A program made the position numbers and the translations under genes. Shown one piece after another: positions 23,969-37,487 of a stretch of 64,000 nt of DNA (the first letter of the stretch is position 1; every line of letters starts with the position of its first letter). Below the pieces are notes generated by a model, which saw nothing but the letters and a program-made list of their open reading frames with translations, had not been told where the DNA came from and ran no database searches. The DNA is from Chloroflexus sp. (GTDB lineage Bacteria; Chloroflexota; Anaerolineae; Anaerolineales; Villigracilaceae), in the NCBI GenBank assembly GCA_020723995.1, contig DYHT01000006.1, positions 2,505 through 66,504 of the forward strand, in the 5' to 3' direction.

Positions 23969-24979
23969 CTATTGTAGCCAACAAGCCACCCAATGATCGG
24001 CTTTGACCTCTTTGAAGAGTGGCTCTTCGAGCGAACACTTGTCAATTGCCACCGGGCAGCGCGGATGGAAGCGGCAGCCCTTGGGCGGGTTCAAAGGACT
24101 GGGGACGTCGCCCTTCAGGAGGGTGCGCTCGCGCTTGACCGTCGGGTCGGCAATGGGGATGGCTGACATTAACGCCTTTGAATAAGGATGCAGGGGGTTT
24201 TCGTAGAGTTCTTCGCGGCCGGTCAATTCGACCATCTTACCCACATACATAACGCCCACACGGTCAGAGATGTGCTCTACCACGCTCAGATTATGGGCAA
24301 TGAACATGTAGGTCAAACCAAACTCACTCTGCAGGTCTTTCAAGATGTTCAACACCTGTGACTGAATGGACACATCCAGCGCGGAGACCGGCTCATCGCA
24401 AACAATGAATTTTGGGAATAGAGCCAGGGCGCGGGCGATGCCAATACGCTGCCGCTGGCCGCCCGAGAATTCGTGCGGATAGCGGCGGGCATGATAGTCT
24501 TCCAGGCCGACCTTCTTCAAAATCTCAAGCATGTTTTCGTAACGCTCACGCGGCGTACCGATACCATGGACATTCAAACCCTCCATTACCGATTCGCCAA
24601 TCGGCATGCGCGGGTCGAGCGAGGCATACGGGTCCTGGAAGATAACCTGCATGTTGCGGCGCATTTCTTTCATTTCCCGGCCGCGCAATGCGAAGACCTC
24701 CTGCCCGTCGAACGTGACCGAGCCCGAGGTGGGTTCAATCAGGCGCAGCATGGTACGGCCAATGGTGGTCTTGCCGCAACCGGATTCCCCAACCAGCCCG
24801 AAAGTTTCCCCCTCCCGGATGGTAAAACTGATATCATCCACAGCCTGCACCCAAGCCGTAACACGTTGCAACAGACCCGCTCGCACGGGGAAATATTTGA
24901 CCAGGTTCTTGACGATGACCAGGTCTCTCTTCGGACTTTCTTTTCTCGTCACCGGTTTGCTCATCAAGTACAACTCCAA
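23969..24979 (-). CDS. oppF: Oligopeptide ABC transporter ATP-binding protein (OppF-like)
   Basis: [32 protein letters not shown]-terminal [12 protein letters not shown]. Confidence 0.92.
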
Positions 24980-25148: not shown

Positions 25149-26234
25149 TTACCGGCCGGCATGCGCCAAAGGGGCACGGTGTTCATCACCGTTCTGATGC
25201 GCAGCACTATTCGTGTACAACCAGCAGCGGACGGTGTGATCAGGAGCGGCCTCAACCAGGTCGGGTTCCAGCTCAGTACAGATTGTCAACTGATGCTCGA
25301 TGCGCGCCTGGCAGCGGGGAGTAAAACGACAACCGGCCGGCAGGTTGATCAAGTTGGGTACGTTGCCAGGGATAACATCCAGCCGATCCTTGAGCTTACC
25401 CAGAATGGGTATGGATCCAATCAGGCCCTGCGTGTAGGGATGGAGAGGCTTAGCGAACAAAGTCTTTACGTCCGCCTCTTCTACGATCCTGCCCGCATAC
25501 ATCACGGCCACGTTTTCCGCCATCTCCGCGATGACCCCCAAGTCATGGGTGATGAGGATGACCGAGGCGCCCACTTTGGTGCGCAGGTCACGCATCAAGT
25601 CCAGAATCTGGGCCTGAATGGTGACGTCCAGGGCGGTAGTTGGCTCGTCGGCGATCAACAGATCTGGCACGCAGGCCAGCGCCATGGCGATCATCACGCG
25701 CTGCGCCATACCGCCCGAAAGCTCGTGAGGGAAGGCTTCAGCGCGTCTCTCTGCTTCTGGGATACCCACCATTTTGAGCAGCTCGATGGCTCGTTTCTGT
25801 CCGGCCTCCTTGCCCAGATCCTGGTGAATGTTCAAGACTTCGGAAATTTGATCGCCGGCGCGGAAGACGGGATTGAGCGCTGTTTGGGGCTGCTGGAAGA
25901 TCATCGAAATGCGGTTGCCACGCACGCGCATCATCTCGCTCTCACTTACTTTGAGCAGGTCCTGACCTTCGTAGACGATCTCACCTTCGATGACTTTGCC
26001 GGGCTGGCTGATCAGGCGCATGATCGAGAGGGCGGTCACGCTCTTGCCACAGCCCGACTCGCCTACCAAGCCAAGCACTTTGCCGGGATAGACTTTGAAG
26101 TCCACGCCATCTACGGCTTTGACCACACCATCTTCTGTGTAGAAGTAGGTTTTAAGGTTTCGCACCTCAAGCAGCGGTTGTTTGTTTTCCTGAGTCACAG
26201 ACGTTCTCCTAATGTAGATGTTTTTCGCATACAC
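25149..26234 (-). CDS. oppD: Oligopeptide ABC transporter ATP-binding protein (OppD-like)
   Basis: [44 protein letters not shown]. Confidence 0.92.
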
Positions 26235-27239
26235 TTAGAGTTTCAAGCGTGGATCAAGAGCGTCGCGCAGGCCATCGCCGATATAGTTGAAGGATAGGGA
26301 GCAGATGAAGATGGGCAATCCAGGCACGAGCGGCAGCCACGGGCGGTCAAACATATAGGTCTGCGTCCCTGAGAGCATATTCCCCCAAGTCGGCACAGGG
26401 TCTTGTATACCAAAACCCAGGAAGGCCAGCGCGGCCTCGGCGACGACATAGCCAGCCAGGCCAAGCGAAGCAGAAACGATGATCGGAGCCATCGCGTTGG
26501 GGATCATGTGCCGCAAAATGATCCATATATTGGAAGCCCCCAGCGAACGGGAGGCCTCCACAAAGGTCTGTTCACGCAGCGACAGGATCATGCCGCGCAT
26601 CAATTGGGCAGACCCCATCCAGCCCAAGCCAGATAGAACCAGCACAATCAGGACGGCGCTGCGCGTATCGCGTGGACCTAAAAGCATGATCTTGCCGACA
26701 ACATTTAGGACCACTGGCGGGATTGGGATCAAGGCCTCATTCGCCAGAAGCATGGAGGAGATAATCAACAGTAAGGGCAGCGAGGGGATCGTCAACATGA
26801 ATTCGACAAAGCGCATCAGAACTGCATCCAGCCACTTGCCATAAAAACCGGAGGTCGAACCGACCACGATCCCAATCGTCTCCGAGATGATTACCGAAAG
26901 GAAGGCCACCGCCAGGGAGATACGGCCGGCAAAGATCAACCGCGAGAAATAATCACGGCCAATATTATCCGTGCCCAGATAATGTATGCGCCCGGTTTCT
27001 TCGTCCACTGCCCCGAAAGGGACAAAATAATCGCCAACTCTAATTTCCTGAACATCAAAAGGAGCGATATAAGGCGCCAAGATCGTGATGATGAGGATCA
27101 CCGAAATAACAACCAACGCGGCCATCGCCAGTTTGTGCCGCCTGAATCGCCTCATAACGATCTGGAACGGGGTGCGTTCCTCGAGTGTGATCGCATCTCC
27201 CGAGAGTTCAGCGATCTGGTTTTTTGTATTTATAGCCAT
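26235..27239 (-). CDS. oppC: Oligopeptide ABC transporter permease (OppC-like)
   Basis: LGTDNIGRDYFSRLIFAGRISL and EAALAFLGFGIQDPVPTWGNML motifs. Confidence 0.92.
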   Translation of the reverse strand: MAINTKNQIAELSGDAITLEERTPFQIVMRRFRRHKLAMAALVVISVILIITILAPYIAPFDVQEIRVGDYFVPFGAVDEETGRIHYLGTDNIGRDYFSRLIFAGRISLAVAFLSVIISETIGIVVGSTSGFYGKWLDAVLMRFVEFMLTIPSLPLLLIISSMLLANEALIPIPPVVLNVVGKIMLLGPRDTRSAVLIVLVLSGLGWMGSAQLMRGMILSLREQTFVEASRSLGASNIWIILRHMIPNAMAPIIVSASLGLAGYVVAEAALAFLGFGIQDPVPTWGNMLSGTQTYMFDRPWLPLVPGLPIFICSLSFNYIGDGLRDALDPRLKL

Positions 27240-27259: not shown

Positions 27260-28462
27260 TCAGGATAGACGGATACGGGGATCAACGACCGTATAAAGAA
27301 TATCACGCAGTAGCGTGGCGATCACGGTCAGCACAGCCAGGATAAAGAAAATTGCCATCGCTACCGGGTAATCATAATCGCCCAAAGCCAGCAGATACAA
27401 CCGGCCCATCCCTGGCCAGGCAAAGATGCTCTCGGTAATGATCGCGCCGCTGAAAAGGCCGGGCAGGGTAAAGACAACAATGGTCACAAACGGGATCAAA
27501 CCGTTGCGCAAGGCGTGTTTCAGAATGACAACCGATTCCTTCAGACCCTTGGCGCGCGCCGTGCGCACGTAGTCTTGGCGCAGCACCTCCAACATGCTGG
27601 AGCGGATATAACGACTCCAGAAGGAAACGTTGACCATCGTCAGCACCGCCACTGGCAGGACCAAATGCAGAGCGCGGTCCGCGGCAGAACCGGCCGTAAT
27701 CGTTCCAAGCAGCGGGATGGTATAGTCGCGCACCGATTCAGAGAGTCCAGCCGGAAGGTAAGGAAGACCGGCGTTTTTTGGCAAGATCGAAAAAGCAATG
27801 ATCATCAGCAGGCCGAAAAAGAAGGTTGGCATGGCCGAACCCATAAACGCCAGGGAGGTGAAAAAATAGTCAAACTTGGAATATTGCTTGACGGCCGAAT
27901 AAACCCCCAGAGGGATACCAATCAGTATGGATAGAAGCGTCTCCAGACCAATCAGTTGCAGAGTCTTCACCAAACGGCTTAACAGCAAATCGCTCACCGG
28001 GCGATCGCGCAGCAATCGCCAGGATAATCCAAAATCGCCAAACAAAATGCCTCGGCTGGTGCGCCGTCCGACCAGATCTTTCAGATGGACATAATGGACA
28101 CAACCAGTGATCCTGGTTTCATAGGCGCCGCTTTTTTCATTCAGAAATTCCTCTTCGACCGGCTGGCTGCATCCGATGACCAGATCACCAAAGAATTCTT
28201 TTCCCCCAATCACGAGCGGGCCGCGCGGCTGGCCGATCCACCAGCGGCTGAAGCGGACAGGCAGGTACAAATCTAACTCATATTGGGCGCGAATGCGGGC
28301 GATATCTTCCTGGGTAATCTGGAAGCGACCGCTCTGCTGGATCTGCCGCAAACCGGCCAGCGGGCCCCCGGGTGCAAGGCTCAATAACGCATAGGTCGCA
28401 ACTGAAGAAATGAAAATTACCAGAATCATCTGCAGCACGCGGCGAATCAAATATACGCTCAT
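27260..28462 (-). CDS. oppB: Oligopeptide ABC transporter permease (OppB-like)
   Basis: YIRSSMLEVLRQDYVRTARAKGLKESVVILKHALRN permease signature. Confidence 0.92.
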   Translation of the reverse strand: MSVYLIRRVLQMILVIFISSVATYALLSLAPGGPLAGLRQIQQSGRFQITQEDIARIRAQYELDLYLPVRFSRWWIGQPRGPLVIGGKEFFGDLVIGCSQPVEEEFLNEKSGAYETRITGCVHYVHLKDLVGRRTSRGILFGDFGLSWRLLRDRPVSDLLLSRLVKTLQLIGLETLLSILIGIPLGVYSAVKQYSKFDYFFTSLAFMGSAMPTFFFGLLMIIAFSILPKNAGLPYLPAGLSESVRDYTIPLLGTITAGSAADRALHLVLPVAVLTMVNVSFWSRYIRSSMLEVLRQDYVRTARAKGLKESVVILKHALRNGLIPFVTIVVFTLPGLFSGAIITESIFAWPGMGRLYLLALGDYDYPVAMAIFFILAVLTVIATLLRDILYTVVDPRIRLS

Positions 28463-28563: not shown

Positions 28564-30453
28564 TTACCGGATGAACAACGCGAGATCGATGTGTTCCCAG
28601 GTAGCGCCAGCGACGGAGTAGGTCTTGATCTTGCCTTCTGCTTCGGCTTTGCCCAGAGTTTCGGTAATGCCAGCCAGAGTCTCGGAGGCGAGGACGTCAA
28701 CTTCGCCGCCCAGCAGCAGGGCTTCGGCGGCTTCGGGCGTGATGATCTGGATCACGAATTTCGGGGTTTTGGGAGCGCCGAATACCCAGAATGGGTTGGC
28801 CTCATAGACGAGTTTCTCGCCTTTGACCCAGGAGACCAGCTTGTACGGGCCCCAGCCGATCGGTTTCTCGGCGATCTCGGGCAGGGTCGTCCATTCTTTC
28901 GCCGGGACATCCTTCAACATGCGGCCGTCTGCGATGACACGATGGGAAGGATATGTGCCCCAAACCGGCACGAAATACAACGGATCCTGCACGCCAGGCA
29001 CCCAGGTGTGAGTATAGCCGACATCGAAGAACTCAACGTTAGCGGTCTTGTTGCAGGTGATGAAGGAGGTCGCGCCGGATTCGGGATCGCAGTTGATTTT
29101 GCGGGCCAGTTCGAAATCTGCGCTCTTGAGTGGCTCGCCATCTTCCCACTTGATGCCGTCAATATACTTGAATGTGGAAACCAGTTGCTTCATCGTGACG
29201 GGGCTGCCGGTGAACTCTACGGTCTCGCCGGCCGCGTTGATAATCTTCATGCCAGCCGCCAGTTCGACAACATCACCGTTGGCATCCACAACCTTGTCGC
29301 CAGCCTTGACTTCAACGTCGTTGTTGATGCTCAGGCCGCTCTCGATTGTGGGCATTTCGGTGATATACACTGGCTGGAACTGGTAGTTCAGAGTAGTGAT
29401 CGAACCGGGTAGGACAATATAGAGCGCCAATTGAGCCACGAAGGCATCTTCAACCAACCCAAACAGCGAGGCGGGTTCCTGCGTGAAGCCAAGCACAATG
29501 GTGTCTCTGCCAGGGACTTCCCATTCGCCCACATTGTACAGGTAGTACTCCTGACCAGGGGTGGGAGCAAAGTTGAGCATGCCGGCCACGGTGGCAAAGG
29601 TCTCAGAGCGGTTGAACAGCGGGATGGTCGGAATATCCTTGGTGTACTCCGTTTGCAGAATCCTATAGTTGTCAATGCGTTCCTGCAGGATCAAAGTGTT
29701 GTTGGCCTTTTTGATGGCGGCGCTGGCAGCTTCATTGCACCAGCCGGGGTAGTTCTGGCCTTCCCAACCATTCGCCGGGCTGGCGATCTGATCACAGGCG
29801 TACAAGGTCTGGCCACCGGGATCAACCTGACCGACCCAGGCGTAGGCGCCCAGTTCGAAATCGCGGCGCGCCAGGCCGGTCGTGTCACCAAACCACCAGG
29901 AGGCGGGAACGTGTAGGCGCAACATGCGGATGCCGCATGTTTTATACTGGGATTCCAAGACGGCGGCCCAGGTCTGGCGGAAGGCCGCGGTGGTGGTGGT
30001 GAATTTCAAGGCCAGTTCCTCGCCAGCCGCATTGGCGCGGTAGGTGGCACCTTCGGCGAGCGTCCAGCCAGCCTCTTCCAGCAGGGCTTTACCCTTGTCA
30101 GGATCATACGGGTAGATGGTGATGTTCTCATCGCCGGCGTAAGCCCAGTGTCCATTTGACATCATGGTGTTCAAGATCAGGGTCTTCTGCTGGTCTTCAG
30201 GGATCAGCGGATAGACTGCCTTAATCAAGTCGAGTTTGTTGGTGCAGTAGGACAGCGCCTGGCGCACTCTCAGGTCGCCAAGGATCGGATGCGGCGTGGT
30301 GAACGCCTCGCGCTCGACCTCGACTGTCACTTCCTTCGTGACGATGACTTCGACTTTTTCGGGAGTCGCGGGGGGCTTCGGGGCGCAGGCTGCCAATACC
30401 ATACTGGCAATAAGCACCAAACCGAAGACCAACATTATGCGTTTGCGTAACAT
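28564..30453 (-). CDS. Family-5 (OppA-like) substrate-binding lipoprotein, apparently circularly permuted
   Basis: Lipobox MVLAACAP; LRVRQALSYCTNK...IPTIPLFNR (normally C-terminal) precedes TIVLGFTQEPASLF...PIGWGPYKLVSWVKGEKL...EHIDLALFIR (normally N-terminal). Confidence 0.88.
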   Translation of the reverse strand: MLRKRIMLVFGLVLIASMVLAACAPKPPATPEKVEVIVTKEVTVEVEREAFTTPHPILGDLRVRQALSYCTNKLDLIKAVYPLIPEDQQKTLILNTMMSNGHWAYAGDENITIYPYDPDKGKALLEEAGWTLAEGATYRANAAGEELALKFTTTTAAFRQTWAAVLESQYKTCGIRMLRLHVPASWWFGDTTGLARRDFELGAYAWVGQVDPGGQTLYACDQIASPANGWEGQNYPGWCNEAASAAIKKANNTLILQERIDNYRILQTEYTKDIPTIPLFNRSETFATVAGMLNFAPTPGQEYYLYNVGEWEVPGRDTIVLGFTQEPASLFGLVEDAFVAQLALYIVLPGSITTLNYQFQPVYITEMPTIESGLSINNDVEVKAGDKVVDANGDVVELAAGMKIINAAGETVEFTGSPVTMKQLVSTFKYIDGIKWEDGEPLKSADFELARKINCDPESGATSFITCNKTANVEFFDVGYTHTWVPGVQDPLYFVPVWGTYPSHRVIADGRMLKDVPAKEWTTLPEIAEKPIGWGPYKLVSWVKGEKLVYEANPFWVFGAPKTPKFVIQIITPEAAEALLLGGEVDVLASETLAGITETLGKAEAEGKIKTYSVAGATWEHIDLALFIR

Positions 30454-31136: not shown

Positions 31137-33071
31137 TCACTCTCCACACCTATCACCGTAGTCGAATGCCTCGATGTTCCACAAATCACTCGCCGCGCTC
31201 GGATCGAGGCTGAAGCTGCACAGATCAAGACGCGCCGCGGCCACTTTCAGCCGCCAATACAATGGGACAATGGGCAAGTCTTCCGCGAAGATGGCCTGTG
31301 TCGCACGGTAGCCATCTGCGTAGTCAGCCTCGCCGGGTAAGGCGCCTCTGGCGGAAAGGCAGGCCGCATCGTAGGCCGGGTTGGTGTAACCGCTCAGGTT
31401 GGTGCCGACCCAATGATTCGCAGAGTTCGGGATCTCGCCGCTGGTGAACCATGCACAGGGCGGTTCTACGCCCGTGCTGCCCATGGCGAACCCGGCCAGG
31501 TCGAACTTGCGCCCGAACAACACTCCATCCGGACCCTGAGCATAAAGCTCGGTGGGTTCATAGTACTGTATATTGACTTTAATCCCGCACTGGGCCAACG
31601 AGTCGGCCAGGATCTGGCTGACCTGCCGGCGCTGGGCTGCGCCGGTCGTCCAGTAATTCAAGACCAACGGCATCCCAGCCGGGATGTTGGCAATGCCCCA
31701 GGCCTGGCGCGGCGTGCCGGCATCATTATCCTGATCCCGCCAGCCGGCCTGCTCCAGCAGTTGATTGGCTGCAACAACATCGAAGGGATAGGCTTTCACG
31801 TCCGGGTTGTAAAGCGGATGGCTGGAAGGGGTGTAGGCATTCGGCACCGTCGTCAGCCCATACAGGACGGTATCCACCACCTTCTGCCGGTCCAGGCACA
31901 TGGCAATCGCCTGGCGGACGCGTTTGTCGCTTAGAAAATCCGGGCGGTCGCCTGTGCTGGGGTTGTAGCCGTTATCATAAGCCGCCGGGCGGATGCCGAA
32001 ATCCAGGCGTTCCATCACATTCGTAGGGGAGAAGATGGCCTTGAGTTGACCCCCGGAATCGAAACTCTCTAGAATACCGGCCTGGCCATCCAGGTGCAGG
32101 CTGGCATCCAGGAGATCACACCGCCCGGCCAGCAATTCACTGATGGCGGTTTCCGGCCCAGAGATAAAACGAAAGACCAGCGTATCGAACTTCGGCAGGC
32201 CTTCACCCGCTCGGAAGTAAAATGGATTCTTCTTCAACGTAACGGCGTCCCCGCTGACCCATTCAGCCATTGCGTAAGGCCCCCAGCCAATCGGATTGCG
32301 CGCGGCCGCCTCGGACTCAGGCAGCTCAGCGGGAGTATATTGGCTCCACACGTGCCTGGGATAAGGAGTCCAGAAATTGGTGAAGTAGGTTGGGTCAAGG
32401 TAGCCCGGCTTGCCCCACCACTGGACGGTCTGTTCATCCACCGCCTCGTAGGACTGCGTGCGGTCAATCAGGTACTTTGAAGCGGGTGTGCTGGCGTCCG
32501 CCGCCAGGTTATATGAATAGACCGAATCATCCACTGTCAGGGGCATGCCATCCGACCAGTAGAGGCCGGGGGACAGGCTGAAATTGACTACCATCTGATC
32601 CATCTGGATCTCGCCCTTGCCATCATAGACGACAGCGCACTCGTCGCTGCGACAGCCGCTCGGCCGGAGGCGCACGCCCGGCGCCAGCGTGACCGGCAGG
32701 TCGTCCGCATCCACCACCTCATCGCCGACATAGACGGAAACGGCGCTGATCAGCGCGTCTCCATCCGCCAGGCTGGGCAGCTTTTTCAGGATGACCGCCT
32801 GATAACCGTATGAATTGGTATCAATTGGGCCATCGTAGATCGCGGCCAGAATGCTGCGCGCCGACGACGAGGGGTTCCCAAGCGGATACAGGCTGGCCGG
32901 TTCCTGCCCCAGGCAGATCGTCAACGTGCGCGGCGGGACGGGGGTCGGCGTGGGCGTGGCGGGGATGGGTGCGGGCAGCGGCGTGGCTGTCTCCTTTGGC
33001 CCACAGGCAGCCAGGAGAACAGCCAGGAAAACGAACAGGCTTACGAAAACAGATCGGCGATCAGGCATCAC
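31137..33071 (-). CDS. Family-5 (OppA-like) substrate-binding lipoprotein, canonical domain order
   Basis: Lipobox VLLAACGP; TLTICLGQEPASLYPLG... then LSDKRVRQAIAMCLDRQKVV... then LPIVPLYWRLKVA. Confidence 0.9.
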   Translation of the reverse strand: MMPDRRSVFVSLFVFLAVLLAACGPKETATPLPAPIPATPTPTPVPPRTLTICLGQEPASLYPLGNPSSSARSILAAIYDGPIDTNSYGYQAVILKKLPSLADGDALISAVSVYVGDEVVDADDLPVTLAPGVRLRPSGCRSDECAVVYDGKGEIQMDQMVVNFSLSPGLYWSDGMPLTVDDSVYSYNLAADASTPASKYLIDRTQSYEAVDEQTVQWWGKPGYLDPTYFTNFWTPYPRHVWSQYTPAELPESEAAARNPIGWGPYAMAEWVSGDAVTLKKNPFYFRAGEGLPKFDTLVFRFISGPETAISELLAGRCDLLDASLHLDGQAGILESFDSGGQLKAIFSPTNVMERLDFGIRPAAYDNGYNPSTGDRPDFLSDKRVRQAIAMCLDRQKVVDTVLYGLTTVPNAYTPSSHPLYNPDVKAYPFDVVAANQLLEQAGWRDQDNDAGTPRQAWGIANIPAGMPLVLNYWTTGAAQRRQVSQILADSLAQCGIKVNIQYYEPTELYAQGPDGVLFGRKFDLAGFAMGSTGVEPPCAWFTSGEIPNSANHWVGTNLSGYTNPAYDAACLSARGALPGEADYADGYRATQAIFAEDLPIVPLYWRLKVAAARLDLCSFSLDPSAASDLWNIEAFDYGDRCGE

Positions 33072-35777: not shown

Positions 35778-37487
35778 ATGCTCAAAAACATCCCCTCCAA
35801 CCCAACTGCCCTCATCAACTGGAAATGGGAAGAAATCGCACTCCACTATAAAGACCTCGCCGCGCGTCCGCTCACTGCCTCCAACGCTGACGGCTGGCTG
35901 GCCGACTGGTCACGCCTGGGTGAACATCTCGAAGAGCTGTACGCCCGCCTTCAGGTTGCCACCTCGGTCAATACCACCGATAAAGAGGCCGATGAACGGA
36001 TGAACAAATTCCTCAATACCATCTATCCGAATGCAATGGCCGCCGAGCAGAAACTGAAAGAAAAACTGCTCGCCAGCGGCCTGGAACCGAAAGGCTTCGA
36101 GATCCCGTTGCGCAACATGCGCGCCGAGGCGGATTTGTTCCGCCAGGCCAACCTGCCGCTGCTGGCCGAGGAGAAAAAATACAATCTCGAATACGATAAA
36201 ATCCTCGGCGCACAGACGGTGCAATGGGATGGTGAAGAAGTCACCCTGACCAAACTCAAGACCGTCTTCCAGGAACCTGAGCGCGCCAAACGCGAAAAGG
36301 CCTGGCGCGCCATTGCCGAGCGCCAACTGGCCGACCGCAAAGCCATTAACGAACTCTGGCAAAAGTACATGCCCCTGCGCGGCAATATCGCCAGGAATGC
36401 CGATAAGCCCAGTTACCGCGAGTACGCCTGGCAGCAACGGCTGCGCTTCGATTTCACAGCCGCTGACTGCAAATCGTTCCACCAGGCGATTGAAGAAGTC
36501 GTCATCCCGGCTGCGACGCGCATTTACGCCCGCCGCCGCAAGGCTCTCGGCGTGGATACCCTCCGCCCGTGGGATCTGGAGGACGGCTGGTACTCACGCC
36601 CGACACCGCCGGCCGGAGAGCCCGCCCTCAAGCCGTTCACAGGCATGGACGAACTGAAAGCCAGCTCCTCGGCCATCTTTCACAAGGTTGATCCAGTGCT
36701 GGGCGGCTACTTCGACACCATGCTGCGCGCAGGTTTGACCGACCTGGATAACCGCAAGAACAAGGCTCCCGGCGCGTTCTGCACTTCATATACGTCCATT
36801 CGCAAGCCGTTCATTTTCGTCAACGCGGTCGGCACGCACGACGACGTGCAGACCACACTGCACGAATCCGGACACGCCTTCCACGTTTTTGAGACGGCTA
36901 ATATCCAGTATGTGCAGCAACTTTCCGTCCCCATGGAATTTGCCGAGGTGGCCTCGATGGGCATGGAACTGCTCGCCGCGCCCTACCTGACCGAGTTCTA
37001 CACCGCAGCCGAGGCGGCGCGTGCCCGCATTGAACATCACGAACGCTCGATCCTCTTCTGGCCCTTCATGGCCGTGGTGGACGCATTCCAGCACTGGGTC
37101 TACGAGAACCCGACCGAGGGCGCGCAGCCCGACAAGTGCGATGCCAAATGGGCCGAACTGTGGCGGCGTTTCATCCCCGGTGTGGATTGGAGCGGGCTGG
37201 AAGATGTGATCAGCACCGGCTGGCAGCGCAAACTGCACATCCACCAGTATCCGTTTTATTACACCGAATACGGCATGGCGCAACTGGGCGCGGTGCAAAT
37301 CTGGGACAACGCCATCAAAGACCAGGCCGGCGCGGTCTCCGCCTATCGTAAGGCGCTGGCGCTGGGAGGCACGGTCACGCTGCCCGAACTCTTCGCCGCT
37401 GCCGGCGCCAAATTCGCCTTTGATTCCGCCACACTGAAGAAAGCCGTGGATTTGATGGAGCGCGTGATCGAGGAATTGGAAGCCTGA
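35778..37487 (+). CDS. M3 family oligoendopeptidase
   Basis: LHESGHAFHVFE (HExxH) and C-terminal M3 signature. Confidence 0.92.
   Translation: MLKNIPSNPTALINWKWEEIALHYKDLAARPLTASNADGWLADWSRLGEHLEELYARLQVATSVNTTDKEADERMNKFLNTIYPNAMAAEQKLKEKLLASGLEPKGFEIPLRNMRAEADLFRQANLPLLAEEKKYNLEYDKILGAQTVQWDGEEVTLTKLKTVFQEPERAKREKAWRAIAERQLADRKAINELWQKYMPLRGNIARNADKPSYREYAWQQRLRFDFTAADCKSFHQAIEEVVIPAATRIYARRRKALGVDTLRPWDLEDGWYSRPTPPAGEPALKPFTGMDELKASSSAIFHKVDPVLGGYFDTMLRAGLTDLDNRKNKAPGAFCTSYTSIRKPFIFVNAVGTHDDVQTTLHESGHAFHVFETANIQYVQQLSVPMEFAEVASMGMELLAAPYLTEFYTAAEAARARIEHHERSILFWPFMAVVDAFQHWVYENPTEGAQPDKCDAKWAELWRRFIPGVDWSGLEDVISTGWQRKLHIHQYPFYYTEYGMAQLGAVQIWDNAIKDQAGAVSAYRKALALGGTVTLPELFAAAGAKFAFDSATLKKAVDLMERVIEELEA

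Follow-up and report, generated by a model that had tools for sequence, protein, structure and literature searches.

P0001, a lipoprotein encoded in the 64,000-nt window of Chloroflexus sp. contig DYHT01000006.1 analyzed here (positions below are those of the window), is very probably a working binding protein of an Opp/Dpp-type importer that descended from a canonical family-5 substrate-binding protein (SBP) by one circular permutation. Its status as a circular permutant relative to the family-5 SBPs is supported by profile matches, a rotation scan, structure prediction run alongside a control, and the many homologues that form a monophyletic group: both segments of the protein are homologous to those of the canonical SBPs and stand in swapped order, the termini of the parent protein are joined, and a single fold is predicted. 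The gene, its subdivisions, and the surrounding operon are listed in Table 1.

Table 1. Permuted SBP gene and the other genes of its operon
Feature	Position	Strand	Basis or remark
Permuted SBP_bac_5 lipoprotein P0001, 629 aa	28564..30453	minus	ORF, PF00496 profile, rotation scan
P0001 signal peptide and lipobox LAAC, aa 1-23; C23, predicted lipidation site	30385..30453	minus	sequence pattern
P0001 first block, aa 52-312	29518..30300	minus	PF00496 201-358
P0001 new internal junction, aa 311-317, WEVPGRD	about 29523..29503	minus	joins the old C- and N-termini
P0001 second block, aa 314-629	28567..29514	minus	profile, PDB, and NCBIfam matches; conserved C-terminus
Canonical SBP_bac_5 lipoprotein P0002, 644 aa, first gene of the operon	31137..33071	minus	ORF, PF00496
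OppB/DppB-type permease with a long TM1-TM2 extracytoplasmic loop (about 112 aa)	27260..28462	minus	
OppC/DppC-type permease	26235..27239	minus	
OppD/DppD-type ATPase	25149..26234	minus	ABC_tran and oligo_HPY
OppF/DppF-type ATPase	23969..24979	minus	assigned from sequence and BLAST, not Pfam

Block order and predicted fold of P0001

At the N-terminus of P0001, the signal peptide with its lipobox (LAAC, ending at residue 23, recognized by pattern only) is followed by a charged low-complexity linker and then by the block FTTPHPILGDLRVRQALSYC, whose place in ordinary family-5 SBPs is after the first hinge strand. The first block corresponds to the canonical C-terminal half and consists of the C-lobe (FTTPHPILGDLRVRQA...IPLFNR) and the canonical C-terminal tail, which is a part of the N-lobe. 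At the junction, this old C-terminal tail runs into the old N-terminal strand without a gap (WEVPGRDTIVLGFTQEPASL). The second block corresponds to the canonical N-terminal half (DTIVLGFTQEPASL...GWGPY...WEHID) and stops 6 residues past WEHID; the C-terminal end of the protein, WEHIDLALFIR, coincides with the end of the first hinge strand.

In a BLASTP comparison with the canonical neighbor P0002, residues 319-626 of P0001 matched residues 52-360 (31% identity, E value 2e-36), and residues 57-316 matched residues 379-641 (28%, 5e-21). A rotation scan of the same pair gave a global score of 538 when P0001 was cut at residue 310 and 320 in its native order; 100 shuffles scored 9 ± 6, with a maximum of 29. 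With a PF00496 score of 132.9 bits (cut-off, 32.4), P0001 belongs to family 5, but its two partial matches cover profile positions 201-358 first and 18-185 second, as opposed to one collinear stretch (11-347) in P0002. The halves were swapped likewise in NCBIfam and PDB searches with P0001, and a PDB search with the permuted profile produced, among the chains listed, no match over the whole length.

The first-pass annotation of the region had proposed that the block order is reversed relative to the neighbor, which is where BLASTP, the rotation scan, and PF00496 agree. The internal junction that it placed near 29510 has been located at that site (Table 1), and the lipobox, the linker, and the GDxVVDAxxxxxxLAxG insert, common to P0001 and P0002, are present as described. 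It had also called for a search for two partial PF00496 matches in reversed order, which were found, and had named as contrary evidence a single collinear match, which was looked for and is absent.

The AlphaFold2 model of P0001, computed from 48 natural sequences, is a confident single structure (pLDDT 86.6, pTM 0.80) in which pLDDT falls below 50 in the linker and one loop only. Foldseek comparison of this model with the PDB retrieved family-5 SBPs, the top matches spanning about 220-340 columns (best E value, 2e-11; TM, 0.2-0.4), whereas the P0002 model, obtained likewise as a control (pLDDT 87.5, pTM 0.82), aligned over its full length of about 600-660 columns (best E value, 9e-37; TM to target up to 0.85). 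The structure-based check thus agrees with the profiles: only one half of P0001 aligns at once, and the protein departs from the collinear order of its family. Matching the secondary structure of both models places hinge strand 1, canonical residues 344-358, at the C-terminus of P0001 (609-624) and hinge strand 2, canonical residues 601-613, at residues 276-289. Because of this placement, the C-lobe comes first and the N-lobe second, which would leave a single covalent crossover between them. The new termini lie in the inter-lobe region, where the first-pass annotation had put them.

Operon context and probable role in transport

In the window, the genes for the canonical SBP, the permuted SBP, OppB, OppC, OppD, and OppF follow one another on the same strand, which puts two permeases and two Opp-type ATPases beside the permuted SBP. 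The order from the permuted SBP to OppF is kept in most loci with a long enough contig, and in the relatives the OppF gene is conserved at the end of the operon. The canonical SBP may be encoded upstream of the permuted one, after OppF, or be missing; the permuted SBP gene is found directly before oppB almost everywhere. In three single-contig complete genomes of other families, it is the sole SBP gene in a 19.5-kb stretch, which argues that the permuted SBP can serve the importer alone. It is also the sole SBP gene in most Chloroflexales-type loci. Such a protein would be expected to close on a peptide-like ligand in the flytrap manner typical of SBPs and to pass it on to the OppBC channel of its own operon.

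Those Chloroflexales-type OppBCDF operons and the nearly invariable position directly upstream of oppB also speak against the idea that the permuted protein no longer takes part in transport and has become a sensor, a decoy, or an accessory lipoprotein of the canonical SBP. This idea is unlikely for P0001, even though a canonical SBP shares the operon in the window and in many Anaerolineales, and further permuted paralogs have no transporter genes nearby. Because of these paralogs, not every permuted family member need be a transporter component.

The additional permuted SBPs (L120, L121, L122, L123, L155, and L156) are about 36-46% identical to P0001, and no OppBCDF set is linked to them within the stretches examined. 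One of them, L120 (G000:C7), is the second permuted gene of the source genome, found by PF00496 on contig C7; it has a hydrophobic N-terminal segment and no clear lipobox. In L122, the permuted SBP is directly followed by a 958-codon open frame (L122:10604-13477), in which an N-terminal part that looks, by eye, like a PhnD-type binding protein is fused to a canonical SBP_bac_5 protein.

In the E. coli DppABCDF system, residues 32-62 of DppB, which lie between TM1 and α3, form a scoop motif that enters the DppA cleft and contacts both lobes (PMC12136057). The corresponding OppB region is 98-114 aa long in all 65 partners of permuted SBPs that were compared (L007-L074), in most cases with a conserved Cys pair; in most of the remaining OppBs it spans 52-82 aa, and one sequence, partial or misaligned, falls below this range. 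The suggestion that this expansion is unique to permuted systems is weakened by four systems of this OppB lineage that have a canonical SBP only: their loops measure 64, 64, 79, and 218 aa. Since loop length varies within the lineage, co-adaptation of OppB is only a lead, and it is a tentative, rather doubtful proposal that the permutation is functional, i.e., that a tether at the C-lobe/hinge and a single crossover alter flytrap opening or docking and are matched by the enlarged OppB loop. The 218-aa loop, between TM1 and TM2, belongs to the OppB encoded at L116:3425-4969. About 2.7 kb from the operon in the window, an open frame on the plus strand (35778..37487) encodes a HESGHAFH motif and resembles M3-type oligoendopeptidases; a predicted enzyme of this kind would fit a peptide-use setting.

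Distribution and origin of the permuted form

A scan of species genomes detected 68 loci with the permuted form, nearly all labeled Chloroflexota, and a search for relatives added more full-length copies. The loci retrieved, which come from complete as well as draft genomes, contain 84 long collinear matches to P0001 (the two sources overlap in part), and full-length homologues with the identical two cut points are present at about 80 Chloroflexota loci, complete chromosomes included. Among 400 evenly sampled Chloroflexota genomes, 43 carried a permuted copy, 42 of them among the 283 genomes of high quality; the carriers represent 21 of 224 genera and six families, some of which lie outside the class of the source organism. 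A scan of genome contigs with short exact P0001 peptide patterns, which distant permuted forms would escape, gave no convincing match outside Chloroflexota, and a plasmid search with the permuted query found no place covering 80% of it. A copy in a "Singulisphaera" metagenome-assembled genome (MAG) was rejected as a sign of spread beyond the phylum, being 96% identical to Roseiflexaceae copies.

Within the family, the junction is conserved, and so are the two ends of the protein. The stretch from W311 to Q325, which spans the junction, measures 15 or 16 residues in each of the 48 aligned homologues, and 79 of the 84 permuted proteins stop exactly 6 residues past the WEHID motif; the cut points are therefore fixed. 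A lipobox-like motif is found in 78 of the 84. Comparison with the close relative L007 indicates purifying selection on the permuted gene (dN 0.037, dS 0.26, dN/dS about 0.14).

For phylogenetic analysis, the permuted proteins were restored to the canonical order, and maximum-likelihood trees were built for each half and for both jointly. The survey of homologues, suggested at the outset, showed the permuted form to be a clade in both half-trees, with bootstrap values of 99 (N-half), 100 (C-half), and 100 (joint tree); FastTree also recovered its monophyly. Its sister in each half-tree is the canonical Chloroflexota family that contains P0002. Rooting of these trees is limited by the small number of outgroups, and a truncated canonical sequence, L117, shifts its position. 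Because there is one permuted clade with the identical sister family in both half-trees, the simplest reading is a single ancient permutation event in an ancestor shared by the sampled lineages, with the gene lost afterwards in many genomes; alternatively, the permuted form may have spread horizontally within Chloroflexota.

Circular permutations are usually modeled as gene duplication followed by trimming. Since both halves trace to one canonical sister family, duplication and trimming of a canonical SBP gene is the simplest account of the origin of P0001 as well. The first-pass annotation had offered the same scenario; the common sister family favors it, but a tandem-fusion intermediate was not found among the homologues gathered.

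The half-trees lend no support to a mosaic origin, in which the C-half and the N-half would come from different SBP lineages and a gene fusion would mimic a permutation. The halves are merely 28-31% identical to the neighbor, which makes a fusion of diverged paralogs conceivable, and a similar possibility was raised for the permuted SBP Tp0684 (see below) by its authors (PMC4990184). A mosaic is nevertheless quite improbable, given the common sister family, the family insert in the N-half, and the C-half cysteines at canonical-family positions; had the fused copies been recent duplicates of a single gene, the outcome could not be told from permutation by duplication. A chimera of two SBP genes produced by assembly or binning, named early on as the result that would overturn the proposal and conceivable in a fragmented MAG (82 contigs) where the gene adjoins a canonical paralog, has a negligible chance, being ruled out by homologues in complete chromosomes, by dozens of independent assemblies, single-contig genomes included, that show the identical arrangement and junction, and by a single in-frame ORF under purifying selection.

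With duplication and trimming as the preferred account, the ancestor would have been a canonical family-5 (cluster C) SBP that underwent one circular permutation, either before the Chloroflexota lineages sampled here, from at least two classes, diverged or later, with spread among them. Trimming of the tandem duplicate would have fused the signal peptide, lipobox, and C-half of one copy to the N-half of the next, joining the old C- and N-termini, both in the N-lobe, through a tight linker. The new termini would sit in the loop past the first hinge strand, each lobe would become contiguous in sequence, the covalent crossovers would decrease from two to one, and the entry of the lipid tether would move from the N-lobe to the C-lobe/hinge side. 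Terminal redundancy was considered as a scar of the duplication: the hinge segment could be matched both by the 6 residues that follow WEHID and by the start, FTTPHP, but the canonical sister loops (mostly 21-27 aa) vary too much to speak for or against such a scar.

Comparison with known substrate-binding proteins

Similarly to the SBP_bac_5/cluster C proteins (DppA, OppA, AppA, NikA/NikZ, and Thermus 2d5w), with which it shares homology in both halves, P0001 is a lipoprotein encoded in an Opp-type operon and has a bilobed, in its case predicted, fold. In contrast to these proteins, its halves are swapped and its lipid anchor is joined to the C-lobe/hinge, and the topology of the model implies one covalent lobe crossover instead of two.

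The closest analog found comes from another SBP class. Tp0684 (TpMglB-2) of Treponema pallidum, a naturally permuted sugar-binding lipoprotein described as "Type Ic / Cluster Bc," shares with P0001 the natural permutation, the lipoprotein character, the link to an ABC transporter, and the status of a separate family (PMC4990184). However, Tp0684 is of type I/cluster B, whereas the profile and structure matches of P0001 are to family 5/cluster C. In Tp0684, three strands are relocated inside the N-lobe by the cut, and the hinge gains a fourth crossing (PMC4990184); in P0001, the cut falls between the lobes and would remove one crossing. No description of a permuted family-5 SBP was found in the open-access literature, subscription papers being outside the coverage. 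Natural circular permutations of SBPs were rare in the literature searched, with none found for family 5/cluster C, a large group of SBPs.

A deep, conserved permuted clade that includes the sole SBPs of some operons represents a natural experiment on the flytrap features that transport needs, among them the two crossovers, the position of the lipid tether, and the folding order. It also supplies natural permutation sites for biosensor design. As in this case, domain annotation can mask a permutation.

The canonical P0002-like SBPs of Chloroflexota, the sister clade of the permuted proteins in both half-trees, resemble P0001 in the GDxVVDA insert, in cysteines by position, and often in belonging to the same operon, but they have the N-then-C order and a loop, mostly of 21-27 residues, where P0001 has its termini. 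Residues C70, C173, C220, C239, C455, and C467 of P0001 are invariant across the 48 aligned permuted proteins, and four of these six appear, by position, to be common to the canonical neighbor (C392, C495, C539, and C571), which suggests conserved disulfides.
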